A stretch of DNA of 64,000 bases, from NCBI RefSeq assembly GCF_008369445.1, contig NZ_VTWH01000004.1, positions 1 to 64,000 of the forward strand. Reading direction: 5' to 3'. Every line of letters begins with the position of its first letter. Position 1 is the first letter of the stretch. The notes below the pieces were generated by a model. It saw only the letters and a program-made list of their open reading frames with translations, was not told the DNA's origin and made no database searches. The position numbers and the translations under genes are program-made. Shown piece by piece: positions 16,033 through 50,910 of the stretch. Source of the stretch: Aureimonas fodinaquatilis. GTDB lineage: Bacteria; Pseudomonadota; Alphaproteobacteria; Rhizobiales; Rhizobiaceae.

Positions 16033-17292
16033 TCACGGACGAGCTTTGTCAAGACCGTAGACTGAATGCAAGGTCCGAACTGCAAGTTCTGAAAACTCAC
16101 CGTCGATCAGAATGGAGATTTTGATCTCGGAAGTTGTGATGGCACGAATGTTAATTCCCCGGCCAGCCAATGCCTTGAAGGCAGTTGCAGCCACACCGGC
16201 ATGGCTTCTCATGCCAATGCCAATAACGGAAACTTTTGTCAGCCCGCTTTCAGACTGCACAACATCAAAGCCCATGTCTTCCTTGGCGGCAGCAATAATT
16301 GAAGCCGCCTTGTCCAGATCACTGGCAGGCACCGTAAAGGTCATGTCGGTGTGGGAGCCGTCTTCCGATATGTTCTGAACAATCATATCGACATTCACAC
16401 CGGCATCGGCCAACGGGCCGAAAATTGCCCCGGCAACACCGGGCCGGTCTGCAACCCTGCGAAGCGAAATCTGGGCTTCGTCCTTGGCATAGGCAATGCC
16501 AGTCACAACCTGCTGTTCCACGATTTCATCCTCGTCGCAAATAAGGGTCCCGGGCGGGTTATCAAAATCGCCCATGCCGGGGGCGTCCGGATCTTCAAAA
16601 GAAGAACGCACGAATGTGCGCACCTTGTGAACCATGGCCAGTTCAACCGAGCGCACCTGTAAGACTTTGGCTCCCAACGACGCCATTTCCAGCATTTCCT
16701 CAAAAGAAATGCGGTCCATGCGTCGTGCCTTGGGCTCGATACGCGGATCAGTTGTATAGACGCCGTCCACATCGGTGTAGATGTCGCAGCGATCGGCCTG
16801 CAGGGCTGCTGCCACAGCGACCGCGCTGGTGTCAGAACCACCCCGGCCCAAAGTGGCAATGCGGTTGTCCGGTGCCAGACCTTGAAAGCCTGCGATAACC
16901 GCAACCTGACCTTCGCCGAAGCGTCGAATGATCTCCGTTCCGTCAATCGCGTCAATCCGGGCTGCCCCATGCGAGCCGTCGGTGCGCAGCGGAATTTGCC
17001 AGCCCATCCATGAGCGGGCGTTCACGCCCAGCTTCTGCAGCACAATTGCCAGAAGGCCGGCCGTAACCTGCTCACCCGAGGCAACAACGGTGTCGTACTC
17101 GCGAGCGTCGTGAATGGCAGACGCCTCTCGGCACCAGCCAACCAGTTCGTTGGTTTTTCCGGACATGGCCGAAACCACCACGGCAACATCATGGCCAGCA
17201 TCAACCTCGCGTTTTACGTGCCGCGCGACATTCCGAATGCGATCAATATCGGCAACGGAGGTTCCGCCGAATTTTAGAACGAGACGAGCCAT
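16033..17292 (-). CDS. lysC: Aspartate kinase
   Basis: 419 residues. Phosphorylates aspartate as the first step to lysine, threonine and methionine. The kinase domain begins [16 protein letters not shown] (the KFGGTS ATP/aspartate motif) and includes [13 protein letters not shown]. It is followed by two ACT-type regulatory domains (about residues 260-415, with TFTVPASDL and [16 protein letters not shown]), where lysine and threonine feedback inhibition acts in homologues. Length and order match monofunctional class alphaproteobacterial aspartokinases. Divergent from ubiG across a 227-base gap. Confidence 0.96.
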
Positions 17293-30686: not shown

Positions 30687-30710
30687 GTTGGTCAGCGGCA
30701 CGTGCTGGAC

Positions 30711-30795
30711 CTCCCCATCCCTACGCCGGTACAAGCCGGATCAGGTTCGGCGGGTTGGCAGCTTGCCTCTCAGCCCTTAAGGGCACCCCGTGAGA
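30711..30795 (-). promoter_or_regulatory. TPP riboswitch (THI element)
   Basis: On the minus strand it begins GGGGTGCCC, then GGGCTGAGAGGC (the CTGAGA core), ACCCGCCGAACCTGATCCGG and TTGTACCGGCGTAGGGA, the classic THI-box order. It is just upstream of thiB; binding of thiamine pyrophosphate is expected to reduce thiBPQ expression. Confidence 0.93.
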
Positions 30796-30843
30796 ACTCT
30801 TATTGTAACCGAGCCTGACACTGATGAACAGGGAGCAGACCTC

Positions 30844-31555: not shown

Positions 31556-31632
31556 GGTCCCATAGCTCAGCAGGATAGAGCACCAGATTCCTAATCTGGG
31601 GGCCGCTGGTTCGAATCCAGCTGGGATCACCA
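31556..31632 (+). tRNA. tRNA-Arg (anticodon CCT)
   Basis: 77 bases folding perfectly: 7-bp acceptor (GGTCCCA/TGGGATC), D arm GCTC-GAGC, anticodon stem CCAGA/TCTGG with loop TTCCTAA (anticodon CCT), TpsiC arm GCTGG-TTCGAAT-CCAGC, and encoded CCA. An accessory gene stretch starts right after it; no duplicate 3' end was found within the window. Confidence 0.95.
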
Positions 31633-39309: not shown

Positions 39310-39780
39310 CTACTCTGCAGCAACGGGCTGCACAACAATTCCAATCAGGCGCCAGACCCTGTCAACGACTTGAAACACAAGTTCAAAACGGACAGGGACA
39401 GGTGTTGTCGCGAAGCGGCCGGAAACCCGAAGGAGGCCGTTCTCGTCGAGAACAGGACCAAAGGTAATGTCCGGCTGAAGCACCGTCACGGCCTGCAGGT
39501 CAATCTCCCTGCGCCGCAATTCTGCGAAAGTAACGGCAAGGTCGGCCGCGGTGTTTCGCGCGGTAAAACCTGGCGCAGCCAATTGGCTCAACACCGAATA
39601 ATTGCCGGTGACGTTGGCGTGATGCAGGGCTACCAAAGTCGAACGTATGAGAATGGCAACAAGTTGCGCGTCCTCCTCGCTGCCAATGGCAGGCACTGGC
39701 TGGGCAGCAACGTTTACAGTCGCCCCGCATGCCATGGCAGACGAAAGCAGAAGCGCAAGCCAGCCACGCCTACCAGGCAA
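39310..39780 (-). CDS. Small secreted protein downstream of the YadA-like gene
   Basis: About 156 residues. The best start is the TTG at 39780, with GGAG six bases upstream, giving a signal peptide (RRGWLALLLSSAMACGATVN then VAAQ). The mature part (LVAILIRSTLVALHHANVTG, LAAPGFTARNTAADLAVTFA, VPVRFELVFQVVDRVWRLIG) resembles small alpha+beta proteins with an NTF2-like cystatin fold; family not certain. Its start overlaps the YadA-like stop by eleven bases, so the two are probably translationally coupled and the small protein may help assembly or act as a periplasmic partner. Confidence 0.65.
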   Translation of the reverse strand: MPGRRGWLALLLSSAMACGATVNVAAQPVPAIGSEEDAQLVAILIRSTLVALHHANVTGNYSVLSQLAAPGFTARNTAADLAVTFAELRRREIDLQAVTVLQPDITFGPVLDENGLLRVSGRFATTPVPVRFELVFQVVDRVWRLIGIVVQPVAAE

Positions 39781-41545
39781 AGCTGGCTCCGATGCGACCG
39801 GCAACTGTTCCGTGGCTGGTTCCAACCCCTACGCCGCCGTTCAGGTATATATTTTCGTGGATTTGGCCAATGGCGCCAAAGCCAAGGGCGGCTTCCCGCT
39901 CAAACATTCCGACATTGGCTGAAATCGCGAAGCTCTTGTCACTTGGCAGTTGCACCCCGCCGAGAGCCAGCGCAATGGCCACACCCTCACGTATGCTGCG
40001 ATTGTCGCTTTCCAGTACGCCGACCCGATCGCTCAGCACGTCCACATTGTTGAAAAAACTGTCAAGGCTGACAGAAGCGAGATTGCCGGAGGCATCGCTG
40101 GTCACGAACTCGACCGGCCCCTGCTGCGCAGCATAGCTTGCTTCAGAGGTTATGCCTGCCAGCGTGTAGGTGGCACCTGGGCCGCCAATGACGATCTGGT
40201 TAGCACCGCCGGCGTTAACGCCCGCGCCTATTGCCACAGAATTGACACCGGAGGCCGTTGCGCCCGCACCCAGCGCGATGGAGCCGGTGCCGGAAGCGGA
40301 TGCCGCTGAACCAACAGCGACCGCGTTGCTGCCGCTGGCGGCTGCACCACCACCTGCCGCAACAGTTTCAATTCCGGTTGCTGAGGCTGGCGCGCCAGTT
40401 GTCCTTGCAGCAAAATAGAAATTATTGCTTTCAATGTTGCCCAACGCGGTGTTGATGGCACCAAAGGCAGCGCCGACCGAATTGTATGTTTGACTCAGTA
40501 CCGTATAGGTTGGCTGCGTCACCGTGCCGTCCGGGGCAACGCTTGAACTTCCGCCCAGCGCCGACACGATGCTTGTGCTGACGGCGGAGAGCTGGCCGCC
40601 ATTGATTGCCTCAGCAGAGCCTGCGGAGACGGCCCCCGCTGCTACACCTTCCAGCGTCCGCGCAACGCCTGACTGGTTGGCAATCGAAATGCTGGTGCCA
40701 TCGGTTGCACCGCCAATGGAAATCGCCCTGCTGATCGGGTCCTGGCGAACGATGCCGCTGGCACCATTGATGATATTGGTGATTTCCAGACTGTTCAGCG
40801 CAGTGCGGCTGTCAAGGTCGATGAGCGCAGACCCGACATTGGTGAAAGTTCCTGTGCTCAGCGCATAGCTTGGCGCCAGCACAAGCCCATCCGTTCCCAC
40901 GGTCGTTCCAAGCGCTTGCGCAATGGCTGTGTTGCTGGAGAATAGCTGCCCCCCATTGATAGCATCTGTGGACGCCGAAGCGATTTCACCGGCAGAAACC
41001 CCGGTCAGCCGTCGTGACAATCCGCCCTGCGAAAGGAAGGAAACGGTGTCTCCGTCAGTGCCAGCCCCAACCGTGATAACCCGAGTGGTCAGATCCTGCT
41101 GAACAAGGCCGATCTGGCCATTCTGCACATCGAGGTAGAAGTCTTCGAGCGCAGCAAAAGCAGCGATCAGACCGATCGAATCGATGAACTGAACACCTGC
41201 GACAAGATCGGTTCTGCTTCCCAGGGTCGAGATGGCATCAGCAAGGTTGTAGTAGGGAACGCCGCCGATCGTATAGGTTGGACCGGTGAAGACGCCTCCG
41301 GTGAAGGTGCTGTCGCCACCGAACACTTCGGTGACAAACGTGTTGACATCGGTATCGGTGATTGCCTGCGCAACAGCGTTATCAGGCGCCAACCCCAATA
41401 AACACACAGCAAGCAGGACGGGCTTGCCGCGTCTCAGAAAAGTTGACGGCGAAGTGCACTTTTTCGGTGCCATGGAAGCCACTTGCACGATGATGTTCCC
41501 CAAAAGACGCGAGGCGATCCAACCTTCAGCCCCGAATTTTTTCAT
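39770..41545 (-). CDS. YadA-like trimeric autotransporter adhesin
   Basis: About 591 residues. A trimeric outer-membrane adhesin: extended signal region with hydrophobic core (VLLAVCLLGLAPDNAVAQ), passenger with two ISneck-type motifs ending STDAINGGQL and SAEAINGGQL, a YadA head-like array of AVAVGSAASASGTGSIALGA-type repeats, a coiled stalk (SDRVGVLESDNRSIREG), and the YadA anchor, a four-strand membrane domain of about 70 residues ending IGASFAW. A CtrA-like box is just upstream. The start is uncertain: ATG 41545 preferred, a GTG at 41587 and ATG at 41473 are alternatives. Probable role: adhesion to surfaces or hosts. Confidence 0.88.
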   Translation of the reverse strand: MKKFGAEGWIASRLLGNIIVQVASMAPKKCTSPSTFLRRGKPVLLAVCLLGLAPDNAVAQAITDTDVNTFVTEVFGGDSTFTGGVFTGPTYTIGGVPYYNLADAISTLGSRTDLVAGVQFIDSIGLIAAFAALEDFYLDVQNGQIGLVQQDLTTRVITVGAGTDGDTVSFLSQGGLSRRLTGVSAGEIASASTDAINGGQLFSSNTAIAQALGTTVGTDGLVLAPSYALSTGTFTNVGSALIDLDSRTALNSLEITNIINGASGIVRQDPISRAISIGGATDGTSISIANQSGVARTLEGVAAGAVSAGSAEAINGGQLSAVSTSIVSALGGSSSVAPDGTVTQPTYTVLSQTYNSVGAAFGAINTALGNIESNNFYFAARTTGAPASATGIETVAAGGGAAASGSNAVAVGSAASASGTGSIALGAGATASGVNSVAIGAGVNAGGANQIVIGGPGATYTLAGITSEASYAAQQGPVEFVTSDASGNLASVSLDSFFNNVDVLSDRVGVLESDNRSIREGVAIALALGGVQLPSDKSFAISANVGMFEREAALGFGAIGQIHENIYLNGGVGVGTSHGTVAGRIGASFAW

Positions 41546-41589
41546 GCCCCAACCTGTGGTTGATTCCGCCAAGGCATTTTTCTTCACCA

Positions 41590-43359: not shown

Positions 43360-44289
43360 ATGGCTGAGCACGCATACACCATTAGTCAGGCTTCAAGGCT
43401 GGTCGGCCTTCCGGTCCGGCGCATTCGTTTCTACAGCGATCAGGGGCTGTTGCCTCTGCTGGACAGAACCGGGAGCGGATACCGCCTGTTCGACGAAAGC
43501 GATCTGGTGCGTCTGGGTTTGATCAGCGCTCTGAGGGACGCAGGATTAAGCCTGAAAGCAATCCGGACCGTCCTTGCCCGGGGCCAGTCTGTTGGCGATG
43601 TGCTGACGCTCCGACTGGCGGAGATAGAGGCGCAGATCAGTTCACAGCGTCGCATTGCGGCAGCCATCCGCATGGCTCTTCGGTCATCTGAGCCAAATCC
43701 CGAAGATCTCAGGAGAATATGGATGATGACTCACTTATCGAACGTCCAACATGTTGCAACCGTGGAGCGGTTTCTTGAACAGGTTGTCGAGGGTTCATCG
43801 GTGGATCCGAAATGGAAAGACTGGATGCTCCGAATGAGCGCCCCAAACCTTCCTGATGACCCTTCATCGGAGCAGCTTGATGCCTGGCTGGAACTGTCGG
43901 CCATGTTGGTTGACCCGGCCTTCATAGCAAAGATGCGGAAAAACGCCGAAGACAGCGCGGTTGCCCTTGATGCCGAGGTTTTCAAGACGATGAGCACTTC
44001 GGTTCTGGCCAAAGCAAACGATGCAATGGATCGCGGTCTGGAACCATCCTCGCCCCAAGGCAAGGCAATCGCTGAAGAATATCTGGCGGGCTGGGCGCGC
44101 GCTACCAATACAAGGCTGGACGAGCCCGGCTTGCAGCGGATGAAGCGGAAGCATCTGGAACATCAACCGAACATGCGGCGATACTGGGCGCTTGTTTCCA
44201 TTTTGAACGGTTTGCCAGGTCGTTCAGAGCCCAGTCAGGAATGGCTGTGGATTGAAAAGGCGGCCTTGGCGTTACTGGCAGACGCCTGA
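43360..44289 (+). CDS. MerR family transcription regulator with helical C-terminal domain
   Basis: 309 residues. An N-terminal MerR winged helix (YTISQASRLVGLPVRRIRFY, then SDQGLLPLLDRTGSGYRLFD) and dimer helix (LAEIEAQISSQRRI) are followed by a long domain of about 200 residues, rich in Trp, Glu and Met, resembling the TipAS-type or unknown ligand-binding helical domain (WKDWMLRMSAP; KAIAEEYLAGWARAT). No Cys for metal sensing is obvious. It lies just upstream of the cobalamin riboswitch operon on the same strand, but has no obvious link to it. Confidence 0.8.
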   Translation: MAEHAYTISQASRLVGLPVRRIRFYSDQGLLPLLDRTGSGYRLFDESDLVRLGLISALRDAGLSLKAIRTVLARGQSVGDVLTLRLAEIEAQISSQRRIAAAIRMALRSSEPNPEDLRRIWMMTHLSNVQHVATVERFLEQVVEGSSVDPKWKDWMLRMSAPNLPDDPSSEQLDAWLELSAMLVDPAFIAKMRKNAEDSAVALDAEVFKTMSTSVLAKANDAMDRGLEPSSPQGKAIAEEYLAGWARATNTRLDEPGLQRMKRKHLEHQPNMRRYWALVSILNGLPGRSEPSQEWLWIEKAALALLADA

Positions 44290-44340
44290 ATTCACGGCCA
44301 ACTGTCTTGCGCTTTGCCGGTCAAGGCGCTACCCCGTTGA

Positions 44341-44520
44341 TTGATGGTGCCTTCCTTTCGGAAGGTTAAAAGGGAATGCGGTCTGGACATATCATCCAAA
44401 GCCGCAGCTGCCCCCGCAACTGTAAGCGGTTCGAGTCTGACACATTGCCACTGGGTTAACCGGGAAGGCGTCAGGCAATCACCGCGAGCCAGGAAACCTG
44501 CCATCATCAACACGGACTGT
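44341..44520 (+). promoter_or_regulatory. Cobalamin riboswitch
   Basis: Core pieces in order: GGTGCC, AAAAGGGAATGCGGT, CCGCAGCTGCCCCCGCAACTGTAAGCGG, GCCACTGG, GGGAAGGCGTCAGGCAA, and GAGCCAGGAAACCTGCC. This is the classic adenosylcobalamin-type element with its B12 box. It precedes the methyltransferase and ABC transporter genes. Confidence 0.93.
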
Positions 44521-44526
44521 CGCCGG

Positions 44527-44589
44527 GCGGGGTGTCTCGGAGGCTTCAGCTTCGCCATTGCTGGCGAAGCGGTTCGCATTGCACCCCGC
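44527..44589 (+). promoter_or_regulatory. Expression-platform hairpin of the cobalamin riboswitch
   Basis: GCGGGGTG and CACCCCGC form an 8-bp stem, enclosing an inner hairpin (CTTCGCCA-ttgc-TGGCGAAG). No T-tract follows. The ribosome site GGGG lies further on at about 44609-44613, so control could be through termination by Rho or translation; uncertain. Confidence 0.5.
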
Positions 44590-44619
44590 TTGTAAAATGA
44601 CGTCCGTCCGGGGTTCGAC

Positions 44620-45426
44620 ATGCATGACGTTTCAGATATGGATGCCAGAAATGCGCGTTCGAACTACGACGTAAAAGAGCAAATTCGCGAATATTGGTCA
44701 CGCCGGTCCCAAACCTTTGATCAATCACCCGCGCACGGCATCCACTCTCAGAACGAGCTTGAAAGCTGGCAACGCCTGATCGGTGACAATGCGCAAGGCA
44801 TTGGCAATGGCCGGGTTCTGGAACTGGCCAGCGGCACCGGTGAATTCACCCGTGTTCTCCGGGCGCTCGGTTGCCAGGTTGAAGGTCTGGATATTTCCGA
44901 AGCAATGATCAGAAATGCTCGGGAAAAACACGGCGGCGATGTGAAATTCCACCTTGGCGATGCCGAGAATACGATGCTTCCCGATGGTTTGTTTGACGCT
45001 GTTGTTTGCCGGCATCTGGTCTGGACGCTGCTGGACCCTGAAAACGCGTTCGGCGACTGGCTGCGAATTTTGAAGCCGGGCGGTCGTCTGATCATCATCG
45101 ATGGCAACTGGCAGCATCAGGCATACGCCGCGAAGCTGGCTGCGCAGGTTGCGAGGATCTGGGACCGTTTTGCACCGCGCAAACCTCTTTACGACGCAGA
45201 GGCGCATCGTTTGATTCAGGCTCAGCTCTTTTTCCGCGACGGCCTGTCCACAACTCTGCTTATTGAAATGCTTGGCAAGGCAGGGTTTGCCCAAGTTCAC
45301 TCAGGCCCGCTCAAAGGCGTTCTGGCTTCCCAGCTTCGCGCCGCCAACTGGCGCGACCGGCTCGATCTGCTTCAGTCGCAAGGCCGCTCCTTCATCGTCT
45401 CGGCTCAGCGCCCTTCCGAAATCTGA
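44620..45426 (+). CDS. Class I SAM-dependent methyltransferase under B12 control
   Basis: 268 residues. SAM motif I VLELASGTGEFTRVL, followed by VEGLDISEAMI, AVVCRHLVWTLLDP and LKPGGRLIIIDGNW. Closest in pattern to UbiE/BioC-type small-molecule methyltransferases. Substrate unknown. It is the first gene after the cobalamin riboswitch, 31 bases before the binding-protein gene, so its substrate is likely linked to cobalt or corrinoids. ATG has GGGG seven bases upstream. N-terminal region is Arg- and Asn-rich (DARNARSNYDVKEQIREYWS). Confidence 0.85.
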   Translation: MHDVSDMDARNARSNYDVKEQIREYWSRRSQTFDQSPAHGIHSQNELESWQRLIGDNAQGIGNGRVLELASGTGEFTRVLRALGCQVEGLDISEAMIRNAREKHGGDVKFHLGDAENTMLPDGLFDAVVCRHLVWTLLDPENAFGDWLRILKPGGRLIIIDGNWQHQAYAAKLAAQVARIWDRFAPRKPLYDAEAHRLIQAQLFFRDGLSTTLLIEMLGKAGFAQVHSGPLKGVLASQLRAANWRDRLDLLQSQGRSFIVSAQRPSEI

Positions 45427-45457
45427 ATCTGACTGAACATCCCCGGAGATACGTCCC

Positions 45458-47017
45458 ATGACCAGAATTTCCCGCCGAACGGTCTTGATCGGCAGCGGAT
45501 CGCTTGCCGCTCTGCTGAGTTCCCCCAGCTGGCTTCGGGCACAGGAAACTGCACCAAAAAGCATTCGCGCTATTCAGCCCTGGGAGTTCAAGAGCATTCA
45601 GCCCGCAGAAAGCGGCTTTGTCCTCAACCGTGCCAGCATTGCCGAAGGGCTGACCGCGCTTCAGCCAGACGGCAATGTTGTTCCGTGCCTTGCAACGGGC
45701 TGGACCACCTCCGACGACGCAAAGAAGTGGCGGTTCGCGCTGCGCCAGGGTGCTGTTTTTCATGACGGCACGCCCGTCACCTCCCAAACGGTCAAGGCCT
45801 CGCTGGAAGCACTGATACCGGAAGCGCGGCGCTTGTCGGCAGTTCCCATTTCGTACATCGAGGCCGAGGAAGACGAGATTGTGTTTCATCTCGATCAGCC
45901 ATTTGGGCCGCTACCGGCCTATCTCTGCGATTTCGCAATCAGCGTCTATGCTCCCGCTGCGTTCGGCCCAGACGGCAAGGTCGCCCGGATTATCGCCACC
46001 GGACCTTACAAAGTCGATGCCATAGAGCTTCCACGACGCCTTTCGCTGGTGCGCCACGAAAACTATTGGGGCAGAAAACCGCATGTGGAGCGTGCGGAAT
46101 TTGAAGCCGTTGCCAATGGTGAGACGAGAACCAATATGGCGCTGGCTGGCGACGCTGACGTCATTATGAACATTCCGACGCCAAGCATCTCGCGCATCGC
46201 CAATTCCGGCACGATGCAGGTGCACGAAGTCATCAATCCGCGTGTGCATGCGCTGTATCCGGACTGTGGCAAACCGCAATTCCAGGATGTTCGCACACGA
46301 CGCGCGTTAAGCCTGGCCATTGACCGCACGGCCATTGCCGCAACAATCATGCGCAATGCCGATCTGGCAGCGACGCAGCTTTTTCCCCCTGTCATGCCGG
46401 ATTGGCACTTTGATGATCTTCCCAATTACGATTATGACGTGGCCGCCGCGGAAGCTTTGCTGGATGAGGCAGGCTGGGTAAAAGGCGCCGACGGCATCCG
46501 CTCCAAGGATGGTGTTCGTTTTGCCGGAACAATCCGAACCTTTCCCAACCGCCCGGAAATGCCGGTCATTGCGGCTGCGCTTCAGGCAATGTTCAAAACC
46601 GTGGGATATGAGCTGGATATCAGCATTGGCGAAGCAAGCGCCATCGTTGAGGCAAAACAGAGCGGAAACCTCGATATAGGCTTTTCATCGCGCCATCTTG
46701 CGATTGTCCCGGACGGTATAGCGGTGATTTCCAGCGAATTCGTTGTGGAGGATTCGCGCAATCAGTCCGATACGGGTGCCACGAACTGGCGCAACGCGGA
46801 GTTCGATGCGCTTTGCGACGCCTATTACGGCGAAACAGACGAGACTGTCCGGGCGAAAAGCCGTCGCCGTCTGGCTGAAATCCTGCAGGAAGATGTGCCG
46901 GTGCTTCCGATCGTCTGGTACAGCCAGATATTTGCGGTTTCCAACCAGCTACAAGGCTTTGTGAACGACCCGTTCGAGCAACGCCTCTATCTTGATCAAC
47001 TGAGTTTCAAGGGCTGA
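45458..47017 (+). CDS. Opp/Nik-type ABC transporter substrate-binding protein, Tat signal
   Basis: 519 residues. SBP_bac_5 family periplasmic protein. N-terminal twin-arginine motif SRRTVLIGSGSLAALL indicates Tat export, used by some metal or cofactor binding proteins. Typical of the family: LKEG-like pattern FALRQGAVFHDGTPVTSQTV, GPYKVDAIELP, FQDVRTRRALSLAIDRTAIA and YDYDVAAAEALLDEAGW. Ligand cannot be told by eye. Position in a B12-regulated operon suggests cobalt, a cobalt chelate, or corrinoid. It ends with TGATG, overlapping the permease start. Confidence 0.88.
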   Translation: MTRISRRTVLIGSGSLAALLSSPSWLRAQETAPKSIRAIQPWEFKSIQPAESGFVLNRASIAEGLTALQPDGNVVPCLATGWTTSDDAKKWRFALRQGAVFHDGTPVTSQTVKASLEALIPEARRLSAVPISYIEAEEDEIVFHLDQPFGPLPAYLCDFAISVYAPAAFGPDGKVARIIATGPYKVDAIELPRRLSLVRHENYWGRKPHVERAEFEAVANGETRTNMALAGDADVIMNIPTPSISRIANSGTMQVHEVINPRVHALYPDCGKPQFQDVRTRRALSLAIDRTAIAATIMRNADLAATQLFPPVMPDWHFDDLPNYDYDVAAAEALLDEAGWVKGADGIRSKDGVRFAGTIRTFPNRPEMPVIAAALQAMFKTVGYELDISIGEASAIVEAKQSGNLDIGFSSRHLAIVPDGIAVISSEFVVEDSRNQSDTGATNWRNAEFDALCDAYYGETDETVRAKSRRRLAEILQEDVPVLPIVWYSQIFAVSNQLQGFVNDPFEQRLYLDQLSFKG

Positions 47018-47985
47018 TGACGCTCTGGACGACCATGATTCTGGGGCGGCTGGCGCAAACCACGCTTGTCGCCCTCACACTGGTTACCGTGTGCTTTGTC
47101 TTCGTGCATGCGCTGCCCGGAGACACAGCTCTGCGTATTGCCGAAGCAAGAGGCGGCGCGGAATTCCTCAACCTTGGCAAAGCACAGCAGATTGCCGAGG
47201 AGGAAGGCCTCAACCGCCCGATCCTTGTCCAGTATGGCGAGTGGGTTGGACGCATTGCAACGGGCGATCTGGGCGTTTCGCTGGTCACAGGACAATCGGT
47301 TGCAAGTGAACTTTGGCAAAGAGGGAAGAACACGCTCATCCTGGGAATTGCTGGTTGGCTTGCATCCTATCTTGTGGCTTTGCCGATCGGAATTTACGCC
47401 GCACTTCGCCCACATGGATGGGTGGACAGGGCATCATCATTCTATTGCGTCACGATGGCATCGCTCCCCAGTTTTCTGATGGGCATCGGACTTATATCCA
47501 TCTTCGCCTTGTCCCTTCGCTGGCTGCCGCCAGCCGGTTTCCGCTCCTGGTCGCATCTCATCTTGCCGGCGGCAACGCTGGCGCTTGGATTGTCAGCATT
47601 TTCAATCCGGCTGATACGAGACACTGTCCGCGAGGTGAACGGAAATTTCTTCATCACTTTCGCAAGAACGAAGGGCCTGACAGCCACAGCAGCTTTGCGA
47701 CAGAACGGCTCGCGCAATGCTGCAATCCCGATTGTCGCCTTCGCCGCGTTGCAGTTTGCCGCCGTTGTCGACGGATTCATCATGATAGAGACGCTTTTCA
47801 ACTATCCCGGCCTAGGCGAACTGCTCGTTTCCTCAATGCTGGCAAGGGATGTTCCCATGGTCATGGGTGCCGGGCTTGTAGCAGCTATTGGCTACGGCCT
47901 TGTCAATCTCGCAGCCGACCTTGTCAGCATTCTGCTGGACCCCCGGCTGTCGCATCGCGACCAGACCAGAGCGGCTCTACGATGA
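47017..47985 (+). CDS. ABC transporter permease (DppB/NikB-like)
   Basis: 322 residues, six membrane segments. N-terminal permease of an Opp/Dpp/Nik importer: LVTVCFVFVHALPGDTALRIAE at the start, EGLNRPILVQYGEWVGRIATGDLGVS and the EAA-type loop with FARTKGLTATAALRQNGSRNAAIPI. TGATG links it to the binding protein upstream and ATGA to the next permease. Forms the membrane channel with the next gene product. Confidence 0.9.
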   Translation: MTLWTTMILGRLAQTTLVALTLVTVCFVFVHALPGDTALRIAEARGGAEFLNLGKAQQIAEEEGLNRPILVQYGEWVGRIATGDLGVSLVTGQSVASELWQRGKNTLILGIAGWLASYLVALPIGIYAALRPHGWVDRASSFYCVTMASLPSFLMGIGLISIFALSLRWLPPAGFRSWSHLILPAATLALGLSAFSIRLIRDTVREVNGNFFITFARTKGLTATAALRQNGSRNAAIPIVAFAALQFAAVVDGFIMIETLFNYPGLGELLVSSMLARDVPMVMGAGLVAAIGYGLVNLAADLVSILLDPRLSHRDQTRAALR

Positions 47986-48773
47986 TGCGGCGCATGCAGG
48001 TTGTTTCGATCATAGTGCTTGCGGTAGCCGTCAGCGCGCATCTCATTCTGCCCGGGGATCCGAACGCCCAGTCTCTGATCAGGGCCCTGGAGAAACCCAG
48101 CCTTTTCCATCCTTTCGGTTTTGATCATCTGGGTAGAGATGTCTTTCTGCGTGTCATGCATGGTGCCCCGAGATCGCTGGGACTTGCCGCACTTTGCGTT
48201 GTATTCGCCTATAGTCTGGGGATCGTGCTTGGCATGGTCGCGGCTTATCGAGGTGGCTTGCTTGATGCAGTGCTCATGCGCACGGTTGATCTGCTTCTTG
48301 CCTTTCCTAGCATTCTTCTGGCGCTTCTGCTGGCAGGATTTCTGGGCGGTGGCCCCGGTCCTATCCTGTTTGGCATTTCGCTTGGGCTTATGCCGCAGTT
48401 TGCCCGTTTGTCCCGCGCCACGGCTGGTCAGGTGCTGGCGGAGCAGCATGTGGAAGCTGCCGAAATGGCCGGCTTTCGAACAAGGGCAATTCTGCGCCGC
48501 CATGTCCTTCCGCCCGTCATTCATTCCACTCTGCCAATTGGGGTCCTTTCCATCGGCGGCGCGATCCTTTCCGTTTCCTCCCTCGGGTTTCTTGGCCTGG
48601 GCATACGCCCGCCTGCTCCGGAATGGGGGGCGATGATCAGCGAGATGATGCCCTATATATCCGAGGCGCGGATCCAGCTTGCAGCACCCTGCATCGCAAT
48701 TTTCTTCTCCGTCCTGGCATTTGCCCACCTGTTCAGGACGGGCGGAAAAACAAGTGACCAGAGACGCACCTGA
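47982..48773 (+). CDS. ABC transporter permease (DppC/NikC-like)
   Basis: About 263 residues. Second permease: HPFGFDHLGRDVFLRVMHGAPRSL and the EAA-type loop AAEMAGFRTRAILRRHVLPPVI are standard DppC elements, ending with GIRPPAPEWGAMISEMM. The start is at the ATG overlapping the previous stop (ATGATG). The reading frame is open upstream but those residues are not coding. Tight overlap at both ends. Confidence 0.9.
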   Translation: MMRRMQVVSIIVLAVAVSAHLILPGDPNAQSLIRALEKPSLFHPFGFDHLGRDVFLRVMHGAPRSLGLAALCVVFAYSLGIVLGMVAAYRGGLLDAVLMRTVDLLLAFPSILLALLLAGFLGGGPGPILFGISLGLMPQFARLSRATAGQVLAEQHVEAAEMAGFRTRAILRRHVLPPVIHSTLPIGVLSIGGAILSVSSLGFLGLGIRPPAPEWGAMISEMMPYISEARIQLAAPCIAIFFSVLAFAHLFRTGGKTSDQRRT

Positions 48774-50209
48774 TGAGCAATCGCGATATGGAATTGCGCC
48801 TGGATGAGATTGTGGACGGTGCCGGGCAGCGCGTGGTTGGCCCGGTGTCACTGCACTGGAACGCTCCGGGCGATGCATGTGCGCTGATCGGTGAGACAGG
48901 CAGCGGCAAAAGTCTTGTCGCACAGTCTATCCTTGGTCTCCTGCCGCCGAATTTTCGGGCCCGCGGCTTTATTCAGATCAAGCAGAACCGCACATCTCTT
49001 TCAGATGTGGCAGCCCTTCAGGCGCAGTGGTCAACGCTGATGGCCCTTGTGCCGCAGGAGCCATTCCGTTCTCTTGATCCGACAATGCGGATCCGCCGGC
49101 AGTTTCGGCAGGTGAAGGGCAGCAATGATGTGCGGATCGTCAATGCGCTGACCGAACTGGACCTCTTGCCCTCTGTGGGTCAGGCCTACCCGTTCCAGCT
49201 ATCCGGCGGCATGGCACAGAGAACTTTGTTTGCAATGGCGCTGATCAGCGGCGCACCACTGGTCATTGCTGATGAGCCGACCAAGGGATTGGACGAAACA
49301 CGCTCTGCTCAAAGCCTGGCGGCTCTGAGGCGCCTTCGCGCAGAGGGACGGAGCGTGCTGATCATCACGCATGATCTGGACCTCGCAAGGCAGTTGGATG
49401 GAACAACGGTTGTCATGAAAGCGGGCGAGGCTGTGGAGACTGGCCCTGCGCAGCATGTGTTCACCAATCCAGCCAATGCCTACACCCGCGAATTGCTTCA
49501 GGCGGACCCTGCTTTCTGGTCCAGCGAAACCGAGCGGACCAGCCCTGCGCAAAACATTGTCGGGGAATTGCGCCGGGTGTCATTTGGATATCGCCGTCAG
49601 ACACCTCTGTTCGAAAATGTCTCCTTTACAATCAATGCGGGCGAGGTTGTTGCGATAACGGGGCCCAGCGGCATCGGAAAAACAACCCTTGGCGATGTGC
49701 TGCTGGGTCTGCGCCGTCCGACGTCGGGAAGCGTTTTGTGGCAAGGCAGCGATATCGCCACAAAAAGCGGTTTGGTTTCCAGTTTGCGAAGCAGATATCA
49801 GAAGCTTCACCAGGATCCCGGATCAGTCTTCGCGCGCCATCGGACAATAGGCCAGCATTTCGCCGATCTGGCTGACATTATCGATCCTGCAACGGTGACT
49901 GAGCGTATGGACAAGCTGATGCAGACAATGCGGCTATCTTCGCGCCTGCTTGACAGAACAGTCGACGAAATTTCCGGCGGCGAAGCGCAGCGGCTGGCAC
50001 TGATGCGTATTTTGATGCTTGCCCCGGTGCTGATCGTCGCTGACGAGCCCTCCTCACGGGTTGATCCTATCGTCCAGCGCGATGTGTTCGACCTTCTCGG
50101 CATGGTCCGCGAGCAACAAAACGTTGCCATTGTGCTGATCAGCCATCAGGCAAGAGTTGTGTCTACTTTTGCCGATAAGGTCATCGATCTGAAAACTGTG
50201 TGTGGCTGA
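48773..50209 (+). CDS. Double-domain ABC ATPase (fused DppD-DppF-like)
   Basis: 478 residues; two nucleotide-binding domains in one chain. First: Walker [13 protein letters not shown], signature [20 protein letters not shown], Walker [13 protein letters not shown]. Second: [36 protein letters not shown] and [11 protein letters not shown]. Both look intact. It drives the two permeases. TGATG overlap with the upstream permease. Ends the B12-regulated operon; no terminator is obvious afterwards. Confidence 0.9.
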
Positions 50210-50257
50210 CGGCATGAACATGCATCGATGATACCGTGACGGTGCAAAAGCCGCCGA

Positions 50258-50500
50258 CACGGTGGGAACTGTGCCACCATCAATTACATAGTCAGCACCG
50301 GTGATGATGGCAGCTCGATCGGAAGCCAGAAAGGCAACGAGATTTGCCACCTCTTCGGGGCTGGACGGGCGTCCGATGGGGATGCCGCCAAGAGTGGCCA
50401 TTATCATTCTTTTACCGGCTGCAAGATCGGTGCCCGCCTCACTGGCCAAACGTTGCGCAAGCCCGATCGAAGCTTCTGTCTCTATCCATCCCGGCGAAAC
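50258..50500 (-). pseudogene. Fragment: C-terminal part of a short-chain dehydrogenase
   Basis: Reads [20 protein letters not shown], then [20 protein letters not shown] and [14 protein letters not shown], the conserved end of SDR enzymes. The N-terminal half, with the Rossmann GxxxGxG, is missing on this strand. It starts just where the plus-strand SDR fragment also starts, head to head, indicating an inversion breakpoint near 50500-50508. Confidence 0.8.
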
Positions 50501-50507
50501 GCCTGCC

Positions 50508-50738
50508 TTGAGCAATGACGATTGGCACAATGAACTGGCACTCAACCTGTTTCCCGCTGTCCGGCTGGATCGCGAGTTGATCCCGAGCATGGTCGCACAG
50601 AGAAGCCGCGTCGTAATTCACGTCTCTTCCATTCAGAGATTGCTGCCGCTGCCGGAAGCAACAACCGCTTATGCTGCGGCAAAGGCAGCACTTTCTACCC
50701 ACAGCAAAGCCTTGTCCAAGGAGATTTCGCCGACGGGA
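50508..50738 (+). pseudogene. Fragment: middle part of a short-chain dehydrogenase
   Basis: Reads [40 protein letters not shown] and [20 protein letters not shown], the SDR stretch with the catalytic Ser and YxxxK. It is on the strand opposite to the C-terminal fragment and then runs into a LysR-type tail, so the gene cannot give a working enzyme. Remnant of one SDR gene cut by an inversion, or two different genes. Confidence 0.8.
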
Positions 50739-50910
50739 TGTCCGTGAGGATATCGAGGCTGGCCCGCTGGTGTGCATTTTGCAGGAATGGATGCCGTTTT
50801 CGGAAGAGCTTTGCATCTACTATCCTCGACGCAACCCGTCAGCCGCACACAGAGCGTTTGTCGATCTTGCGCGTCAGTTTGCAGCAAAGGCTCGAAACAA
50901 CTCCGCATAG
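50737..50910 (+). pseudogene. Fragment: C-terminus of a LysR-type regulator
   Basis: Reads [20 protein letters not shown], then [20 protein letters not shown], typical of the LysR effector-domain end. The DNA-binding half is absent. The arrangement suggests a divergent LysR-SDR pair that was rearranged and is decaying. Confidence 0.7.

Follow-up and report, generated by a model that had tools for sequence, protein, structure and literature searches.

Results

A cobalamin riboswitch and a five-gene operon

The window analyzed in this study is a 64,000-nucleotide stretch of the Aureimonas fodinaquatilis genome (positions 1 to 64,000 of contig NZ_VTWH01000004.1, assembly GCF_008369445.1). It contains a cobalamin riboswitch followed by five genes on the same strand, which encode an S-adenosylmethionine (SAM)-dependent methyltransferase, a solute-binding protein (SBP), two permeases and a fused ATP-binding cassette (ABC) ATPase (Table 1). 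A preliminary description of this DNA had recognized a clear riboswitch starting at 44341 and a tight operon behind it, and our analysis bears this out. Position 44341 lies inside the Rfam match, the gene content is as described, and the genes overlap at TGATG (47015-47019), ATGA (47982-47985) and TGATG (48771-48775). A 31-base gap separates the methyltransferase and SBP genes. The twin-arginine start of the SBP, recognized by eye, reads MTRISRRTVLIG. The ATPase sequence contains two Walker A motifs, GETGSGKS and GPSGIGKT, and matches TIGR02770 and TIGR02769 below their cut-offs. With a family-5 SBP, two BPD_transp_1 permeases and two ABC ATPase domains, the importer falls into the Opp/Nik (peptide/nickel) ABC family, to which it had originally been assigned.

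Table 1. Features of the riboswitch and operon (pLDDT, predicted local distance difference test score of the structural model)
Feature	Position	Strand	Evidence
Cobalamin riboswitch aptamer	44328..44519	+	Rfam RF00174, 116.6 bits vs gathering score 31.5, model positions 1-189 (full model)
Leader hairpin, possible expression platform	44524..44592	+	RNA fold; between aptamer and start codon
Class I SAM-dependent methyltransferase, importer-associated family (motif RHLVWTL)	44620..45426	+	Pfam Methyltransf_11 8.2e-23; family alignments; model pLDDT 91
Family-5 SBP, twin-arginine signal by eye	45458..47017	+	Pfam SBP_bac_5 7.9e-74; model pLDDT 83
Inner-membrane permease 1 (Opp/Nik B type)	47017..47985	+	Pfam BPD_transp_1 1.2e-30
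Inner-membrane permease 2 (Opp/Nik C type)	47982..48773	+	Pfam BPD_transp_1 1e-24
Fused double ABC ATPase (NikD-like and NikE-like halves), 478 aa	48773..50209	+	Two ABC_tran stretches

The leader hairpin is long and G+C-rich. The fold of 44505-44640 has a z score of -2.15, and 6 of 200 shuffled sequences fold at least as well. No T run follows the hairpin 3' and none of the terminator-like sites detected falls there; it is therefore not a canonical intrinsic terminator. With no T run, control of translation by the riboswitch would be as likely as termination.

A locus in Mesorhizobium zhangyense (L061) has the identical gene order behind a cobalamin riboswitch, and the outer stem arms of the leader hairpin are kept there. 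Its products are 74% (methyltransferase), 87% (SBP), 89 and 86% (permeases) and 75% (ATPase) identical to those in the window (tblastn). The same order behind the same riboswitch indicates that the five genes are a conserved unit and not a chance arrangement. The preliminary description had proposed looking for this order behind other cobalamin riboswitches, and among the loci kept, the complete operon with its riboswitch is found in M. zhangyense, a Beijerinckiaceae bacterium (L063) and Stappia (L065). The Beijerinckiaceae locus also has a second cobalamin riboswitch (2342-2542) about 5 kb upstream of the first, with other genes separating the two. Both the methyltransferase and the SBP are rare in the class as sampled, being present in 5 (E 1e-30) and 6 (E 1e-60) of 384 other genomes, respectively. 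Among 60 nearer relatives, six carry a clear orthologue of the methyltransferase (E at most 2e-44) and six have an SBP relative (E 1e-40); only one (G001) has both, at separate places.

The A. fodinaquatilis genome holds seven cobalamin riboswitches, the weakest scoring 31.9 bits (cut-off 31.5). The other six precede genes for a ribonucleotide reductase large subunit, a BtuB-like receptor, a BtuFCD-like system, a MetE-like protein, a CobW-CobN cobalt-chelatase locus and CbtA/CbtB-like proteins. Ribonucleotide reductase, CobN and the BtuF-like and BtuC-like proteins were identified with Pfam, the others by eye. Since separate riboswitches precede the BtuB-like and BtuFCD-like genes, corrinoid import seems to be provided for elsewhere.

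The methyltransferase and its importer partners

The methyltransferase matches six Pfam families at E 0.001, all of them methyltransferase families; nicotianamine synthase (NAS, CntL type) is not among them. Its match to the corrinoid-protein-associated CpaM is weak (53.9 bits vs cut-off 180). The SAM motif, LELASGTGEF, is intact, and no export signal was seen by eye. The protein carries the motif RHLVWTL after strand 4 and a lid motif, IRxYWSxR..FD. In class I enzymes, the place after strand 4 is near the substrate. Conservation was counted without the enzyme from L077, whose gene is truncated by the end of its contig. In an alignment of 50 rows (A3), R131, H132, L133, V134, W135 and L137 are invariant and T136 is kept in at least 90% of the rows. 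H39, H132 and H196 are invariant or nearly so. In fold comparisons, the nearest structures were UbiG (Z 21.0), phosphoethanolamine methyltransferase (20.2) and DhpI (19.8); many other chains match nearly as well, so the fold does not reveal the substrate.

A scan with the methyltransferase alignment over one genome per species (84,980 species) yielded at least 554 relatives; the 80 top-ranking ones were retained, giving 79 loci. Fifty-two of these loci are of the type of CbtJKL, with genes for a Fec-type SBP, a permease and an ATPase, sometimes a cupredoxin-like gene, and then the methyltransferase. All 52 have a cobalamin riboswitch according to covariance model R1, which was built with six of the loci it later found. 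Thirteen loci represent another Fec type, whose SBP carries a Cys-Cys motif (CC-type); none of them has a riboswitch. Opp-type importers are found with a co-directional riboswitch in four loci (L061, L063, L065 and L093) and without one in three (L062, L064 and L077). One locus is AztC-type (L067), and the other six are L072, L075, L101, L109, L127 and L132. In L075 and L109 the riboswitch lies on the other strand, and they were not counted as Opp riboswitch operons and are labelled 'other' in the methyltransferase tree. Outside the 79, 11 further loci comprise nine CC-type and two cbt-type loci (L042 and L157), the latter two with riboswitches. An Rfam recheck of 17 of the 79 loci agreed with R1 (6 with and 11 without a riboswitch); its only CbtJKL-type loci were L069 and L085, plus L042 from outside the 79. 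A small cupredoxin-like gene lies between the ATPase and methyltransferase genes in L069, L073, L078, L079, L083, L046 and others, and in L046 it scores above the NCBIfam cut-off for pseudoazurin. In L064 and L077, the Opp-type importer is flanked by two genes of the methyltransferase family.

The regulatory context of these loci varies. Zur-like sites were scored with a weight matrix from five published Zur sites of one species, Paracoccus denitrificans (Table 7 in PMC5387054), with plain shuffling as the null. L067 combines AztC (383.7 bits, cut-off 350) with a CobW-family GTPase and a Zur-like site, and L072 and L077 also carry Zur-like sites. In L062, a NikR gene (195.6 bits, cut-off 83) precedes the Opp genes. 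In the 22 CC-type operons with the methyltransferase, neither a riboswitch nor a Zur-like site was found, and a palindrome search gave no visible common motif. Only two of the 22, L160 (16 of 19) and L161 (18 of 19), have Fur-like boxes, against a background of 7 sites of at least 14 of 19 in 1.10 Mb of other loci; these boxes are a lead pointing to iron. Judged by gene context, the methyltransferase family accompanies at least three ABC importer families and regulators for B12/cobalt, zinc and nickel, and perhaps iron. It appears to track metal import and not one transporter fold or one metal. The earlier view that the methyltransferase belongs to the importer system agrees with this recurrence beside metal importers, including those of other families.

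In the methyltransferase tree (55 rows out of 87 sequences), the enzyme from the window lies in a six-row Opp clade (98/92). The L093 enzyme falls within the CbtJKL clade, where its neighbor is the solitary L127 (99/96). The L093 locus has a different Opp importer (SBP 25% identical), and a CbiX-domain gene lies between its riboswitch and Opp genes. The placement of L093 suggests that one importer has replaced another next to this enzyme. The L067 and L072 enzymes are likewise inside the CbtJKL clade. Five context labels require 8 changes on the tree, compared with 26.3 for shuffled labels and a minimum of 4, suggesting that the partners are mostly co-inherited and sometimes swapped.

CbtJKL and its Zur-like boxes

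CbtJKL of Sinorhizobium meliloti is described as a cobalt importer under riboswitch control (PMC7689651), and its role in cobalt uptake is also reported in PMC4207669 and PMC12239276. On pSymB of strain 1021, we found a riboswitch at 66295-66456 and the SBP gene from 66644. A candidate RNA at 66313-66506 between SMb20055 and SMb20056 (PMC2780559) and a B12 riboswitch upstream of smb20056 (PMC2245857) have been placed there, and the locus was therefore taken by position as cbtJKL (SMb20056-58). The methyltransferase is the next gene after cbtJKL in strain 1021 (its first 149 residues are within the stretch examined). The gene is complete in strain ml21, where it is annotated as 'methyltransferase domain-containing protein'. 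The operon in the window and cbtJKL thus share a cobalamin riboswitch in the leader, an ABC importer and a methyltransferase of the same family next in line. However, CbtJKL is of the Fec/Btu type (Peripla_BP_2 in the CbtJ-like SBP of L162), whereas the importer in the window is of the unrelated Opp/Nik type. In the A. fodinaquatilis genome, the closest match to CbtK is 38% identical, compared with 62-97% for the CbtK-like permeases in cbt-type loci, so the operon may stand in for CbtJKL here.

The S. meliloti cbt operon also differs from the one in the window in having a Zur-like box (17.9 bits at 16123 in locus L163), about 170 bases before the aptamer core. Such sites occur within 850 bases upstream of the SBP gene in 17 of 53 CbtJKL-type loci (the 52 plus L042), including L066, L069, L073, L084, L091 and L107. 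The rest of the same loci predicts 0.77; the corresponding Poisson P of 1.7e-17 is too small, given the relatedness of the loci and an interval that was set only once the sites were known. Fourteen of the 17 sites lie before the aptamer core, one (L123) is at its edge, and those of L042 and L085 follow it. A divergent neighboring gene may be the target of some of them; in L084, an AztD-like gene is present there. The sites suggest that these operons may be under joint zinc and B12 control. In the open-access literature, with most subscription papers outside the scope, we found nothing on such joint control of CbtJKL, nor on the role of this methyltransferase or this operon.

The binding protein and its relatives

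Closeness of the SBP to NikA and CntA proper, with which the preliminary description had proposed to compare it, was not borne out. The SBP scores 221.5 and 184.8 bits against NikA models with cut-offs of 600 (NF045468) and 393 (TIGR02294), and 127 bits against a CntA model with a cut-off of 800 (NF047575). Its best NCBIfam scores are to nickel-type models, below cut-off. In NikA, Trp398 and Tyr402 presumably belong to the motif TWGxxYDP, and we take His416 to be the metal ligand. The SBP reads SRHLAIVPDG where NikA and CntA have TWGxxYDP (sequence alignment to the 4oer and 5yh5 stretches only), and the following region, equivalent to that of NikA His416, contains no His in the same alignment (CntA and Brucella NikA stretches). 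The predicted structure was built from only 8 sequences. Its nearest chains are NikZ, YliB, NikA, DppA and others (Z up to 38.5; 37.7 for Staphylococcus aureus NikA and 34.6 for CntA), which establishes the fold alone. The importer shares its superfamily, and the best NCBIfam names of its SBP and permeases, with NikABCDE and CntABCDF, but differs in scores far under the cut-offs, a replaced SBP motif and fused ATPases. The Fec/Btu-type components of BtuFCD were not found among the operon proteins (Pfam). NikABCDE importers behind B12 elements are known from Clostridium tetani and Desulfitobacterium hafniense (PMC2667541). They are likewise of the Opp/Nik type, but come from distant phyla, and the relevant passages of that paper mention no methyltransferase beside them.

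Searches with the SBP gave 12 Opp relatives outside its own clade (L055-L060 and L151-L156). A Zur-like site of at least 15 bits lies upstream of the operon in nine of them (in L151, before its COG0523-type gene). L057, L153 and L156 have no such upstream site, and L153 has one elsewhere in the locus. In shuffled upstream regions of the 12 loci, the best scores average about -1 to 9 bits; the highest maximum, 18.0, is that of L057, which is A+T-rich. Rfam detected no riboswitch in 11 of the 12. The exception, L055, has both a riboswitch and a Zur-like site, and no methyltransferase in the 15 kb examined. COG0523-type genes (GFLGAGKTT, by eye) lie beside L059, L151 and L153. By context, the relatives with Zur-like boxes, some of them beside COG0523 genes, would be zinc importers. 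Cluster C of P. denitrificans (pden1338-1344) is described as a Zur-controlled Opp/Nik-type importer with a COG0523 gene (PMC5387054). It is alike in type, and the nearest SBP relatives of the operon include loci with COG0523-type genes and Zur-like boxes. It differs in being under zinc/Zur control in place of a riboswitch, and its seven tabled genes include no methyltransferase; the likeness is by description, not sequence.

The clade of the SBP itself (the window, L061, L063 and L065) shows the reverse pattern. All four members have the riboswitch and the methyltransferase, and none has a Zur-like site of at least 15 bits (best 11.7, in L065). No site of at least 4 bits was found in the upstream region of the operon (43801-44620), and none of at least 13 bits in the window. 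As a control, the znuA-like locus of the same genome (L170) has a Zur-like site of 23.9 bits; a second locus (L171) has none of at least 12. In the midpoint-rooted SBP tree, the clade of four (100/99) is sister to L151-L153 (99/98) inside a clade of 18 rows (95/97). Because the clade has the riboswitch, lacks a Zur-like box and is nested among mostly Zur-boxed importers, the simplest reading is that a zinc-type importer has traded Zur control for the B12 riboswitch. The PRVH motif and the Cys in [DN]C[GA]KPQF (DCGKPQF in the window) are common to the four SBPs. The PRVH His is present in none of the 12 relatives, and the Cys is present in L151 among them. We guess that these residues are involved in metal binding.

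Discussion

Combining the riboswitch, the family relations and the gene contexts, we propose that the operon encodes a B12-repressed, high-affinity cobalt importer, probably for a small chelate, which evolved from a zinc-type Opp/Nik importer. We put the probability of this proposal at about 55%. When adenosylcobalamin is plentiful, the riboswitch would shut the operon. When it is scarce, the SBP, the two permeases and the fused ATPase would import cobalt for B12 synthesis, which fits the CobW-CobN locus behind another riboswitch in the genome. The methyltransferase is most likely cytoplasmic and would act on the ligand arriving with the metal. Methylation could lower the metal affinity of the ligand or mark it, so that the metal is released. 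Methylation of an importer protein is unlikely, because importers that differ in fold and metal are served by the same enzyme family; what they would most naturally have in common is a ligand or chelate. This is our favored but tentative view of the task of the enzyme, less probable by itself than the cobalt importer proposal. Alternatively, it could finish a home-made chelator or dispose of an emptied one.

The preliminary description had left the cargo between cobalt, a corrinoid and a methylated metallophore. A metal, most likely cobalt by context, fits the present results. Import and methylation of corrinoids is improbable: the riboswitch senses corrinoids and there is the weak CpaM match, but the genome has BtuB-like and BtuFCD-like loci elsewhere, each behind its own riboswitch, Zur-like boxes are found at most of the SBP relatives, and relatives of the methyltransferase adjoin NikR, AztC or Fur-like boxes. 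The same Zur-like boxes, in the closest SBP relatives, could instead mean that the cargo is nickel or zinc and B12 control incidental, and the nickel-type NCBIfam scores and the combination of riboswitch and Zur-like box in L055 point the same way. We consider this quite unlikely, since the operon has no Zur-like site and no NikR-type gene, and the riboswitch is present throughout its SBP clade. An ordinary peptide importer beside an unrelated methyltransferase would fit the fold, which is common to DppA and OppA-type proteins; riboswitch control, the Zur-like boxes of the relatives and the presence of the methyltransferase beside several importer families make it very improbable.

CntA-kind Opp/Nik importers take up opine metallophores. 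The methyltransferase might accordingly help to synthesize or complete a metallophore of the cell's own, which would be secreted, bind metal outside and return through the importer. An enzyme beside importers for several metals, as judged by context, is what a broad chelator would lead one to expect. However, NAS is absent from the Pfam matches of the enzyme, neither an exporter gene nor one for chelator synthesis is present in the operon (the search covered the operon itself, not the remaining genome or other loci), and the SBP lacks the CntA ligand motif. This alternative appears unlikely.

Several observations weigh against the cobalt importer proposal. The methyltransferase is missing from all 12 Opp relatives, including L055, in the stretches examined (L153 and L154 end at contig ends), so importers of this type can do without it. 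Nor does it point to cobalt specifically, because it also lies beside importers with Fur-like boxes, NikR or Zur-like boxes. The 79 loci represent only the 80 top-ranking of at least 554 relatives, come mostly from Rhizobiales and are not independent. Three of the nine Zur-boxed relatives (L056, L058 and L060) come from one genus, the same as that of the window, and the L155 site (17.2) is only just above its own shuffle maximum (15.6). The order of events, Zur first and B12 later, depends on the midpoint rooting of the SBP tree; we infer this direction. Finally, CbtAB-like genes, recognized by eye behind the weakest riboswitch match of the genome, are present, so cobalt uptake may be redundant.

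CbtJKL is described as a Co(II) importer, and a methyltransferase that recurs beside such unlike metal importers points to a shared chemical step, for which the handling of a chelate is the easiest to picture. More speculatively, and with considerable doubt, one cytoplasmic SAM methyltransferase family could be a general partner of importers of chelated metals (cobalt, zinc, nickel and perhaps iron), releasing the metal by methylating the ligand, with cobalt uptake by CbtJKL-type importers controlled jointly by Zur and the B12 riboswitch and the operon in the window a zinc importer rewired to cobalt. Metal release by chelator methylation, if true, would be a new mechanism. The S. meliloti gene directly behind cbtJKL makes the role of the methyltransferase testable. 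The operon in the window may further exemplify an importer whose switch of regulator brought a switch of metal. A connection between the supply of zinc and that of cobalt also becomes testable through the Zur-like boxes found at riboswitch operons of the CbtJKL type.

Other features of the window

A MerR-family regulator gene (43360-44289, + strand) lies directly 5' of the operon; no partner gene was recognized for it. Directly 3' of the operon is a short-chain dehydrogenase gene (50192-50747) that is split by an inversion. Its middle part (50502-50747, + strand) matches positions 96-171 of 195 in the adh_short profile, and its C-terminal part (50192-50516, - strand) matches positions 171-234 of 236 in adh_short_C2. 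The window also contains a thiamine pyrophosphate (TPP) riboswitch (30701-30800, - strand), a tRNA gene (31556-31629) and a gene for a YadA-type trimeric autotransporter with stalk, head and anchor domains (39770-41587, - strand).

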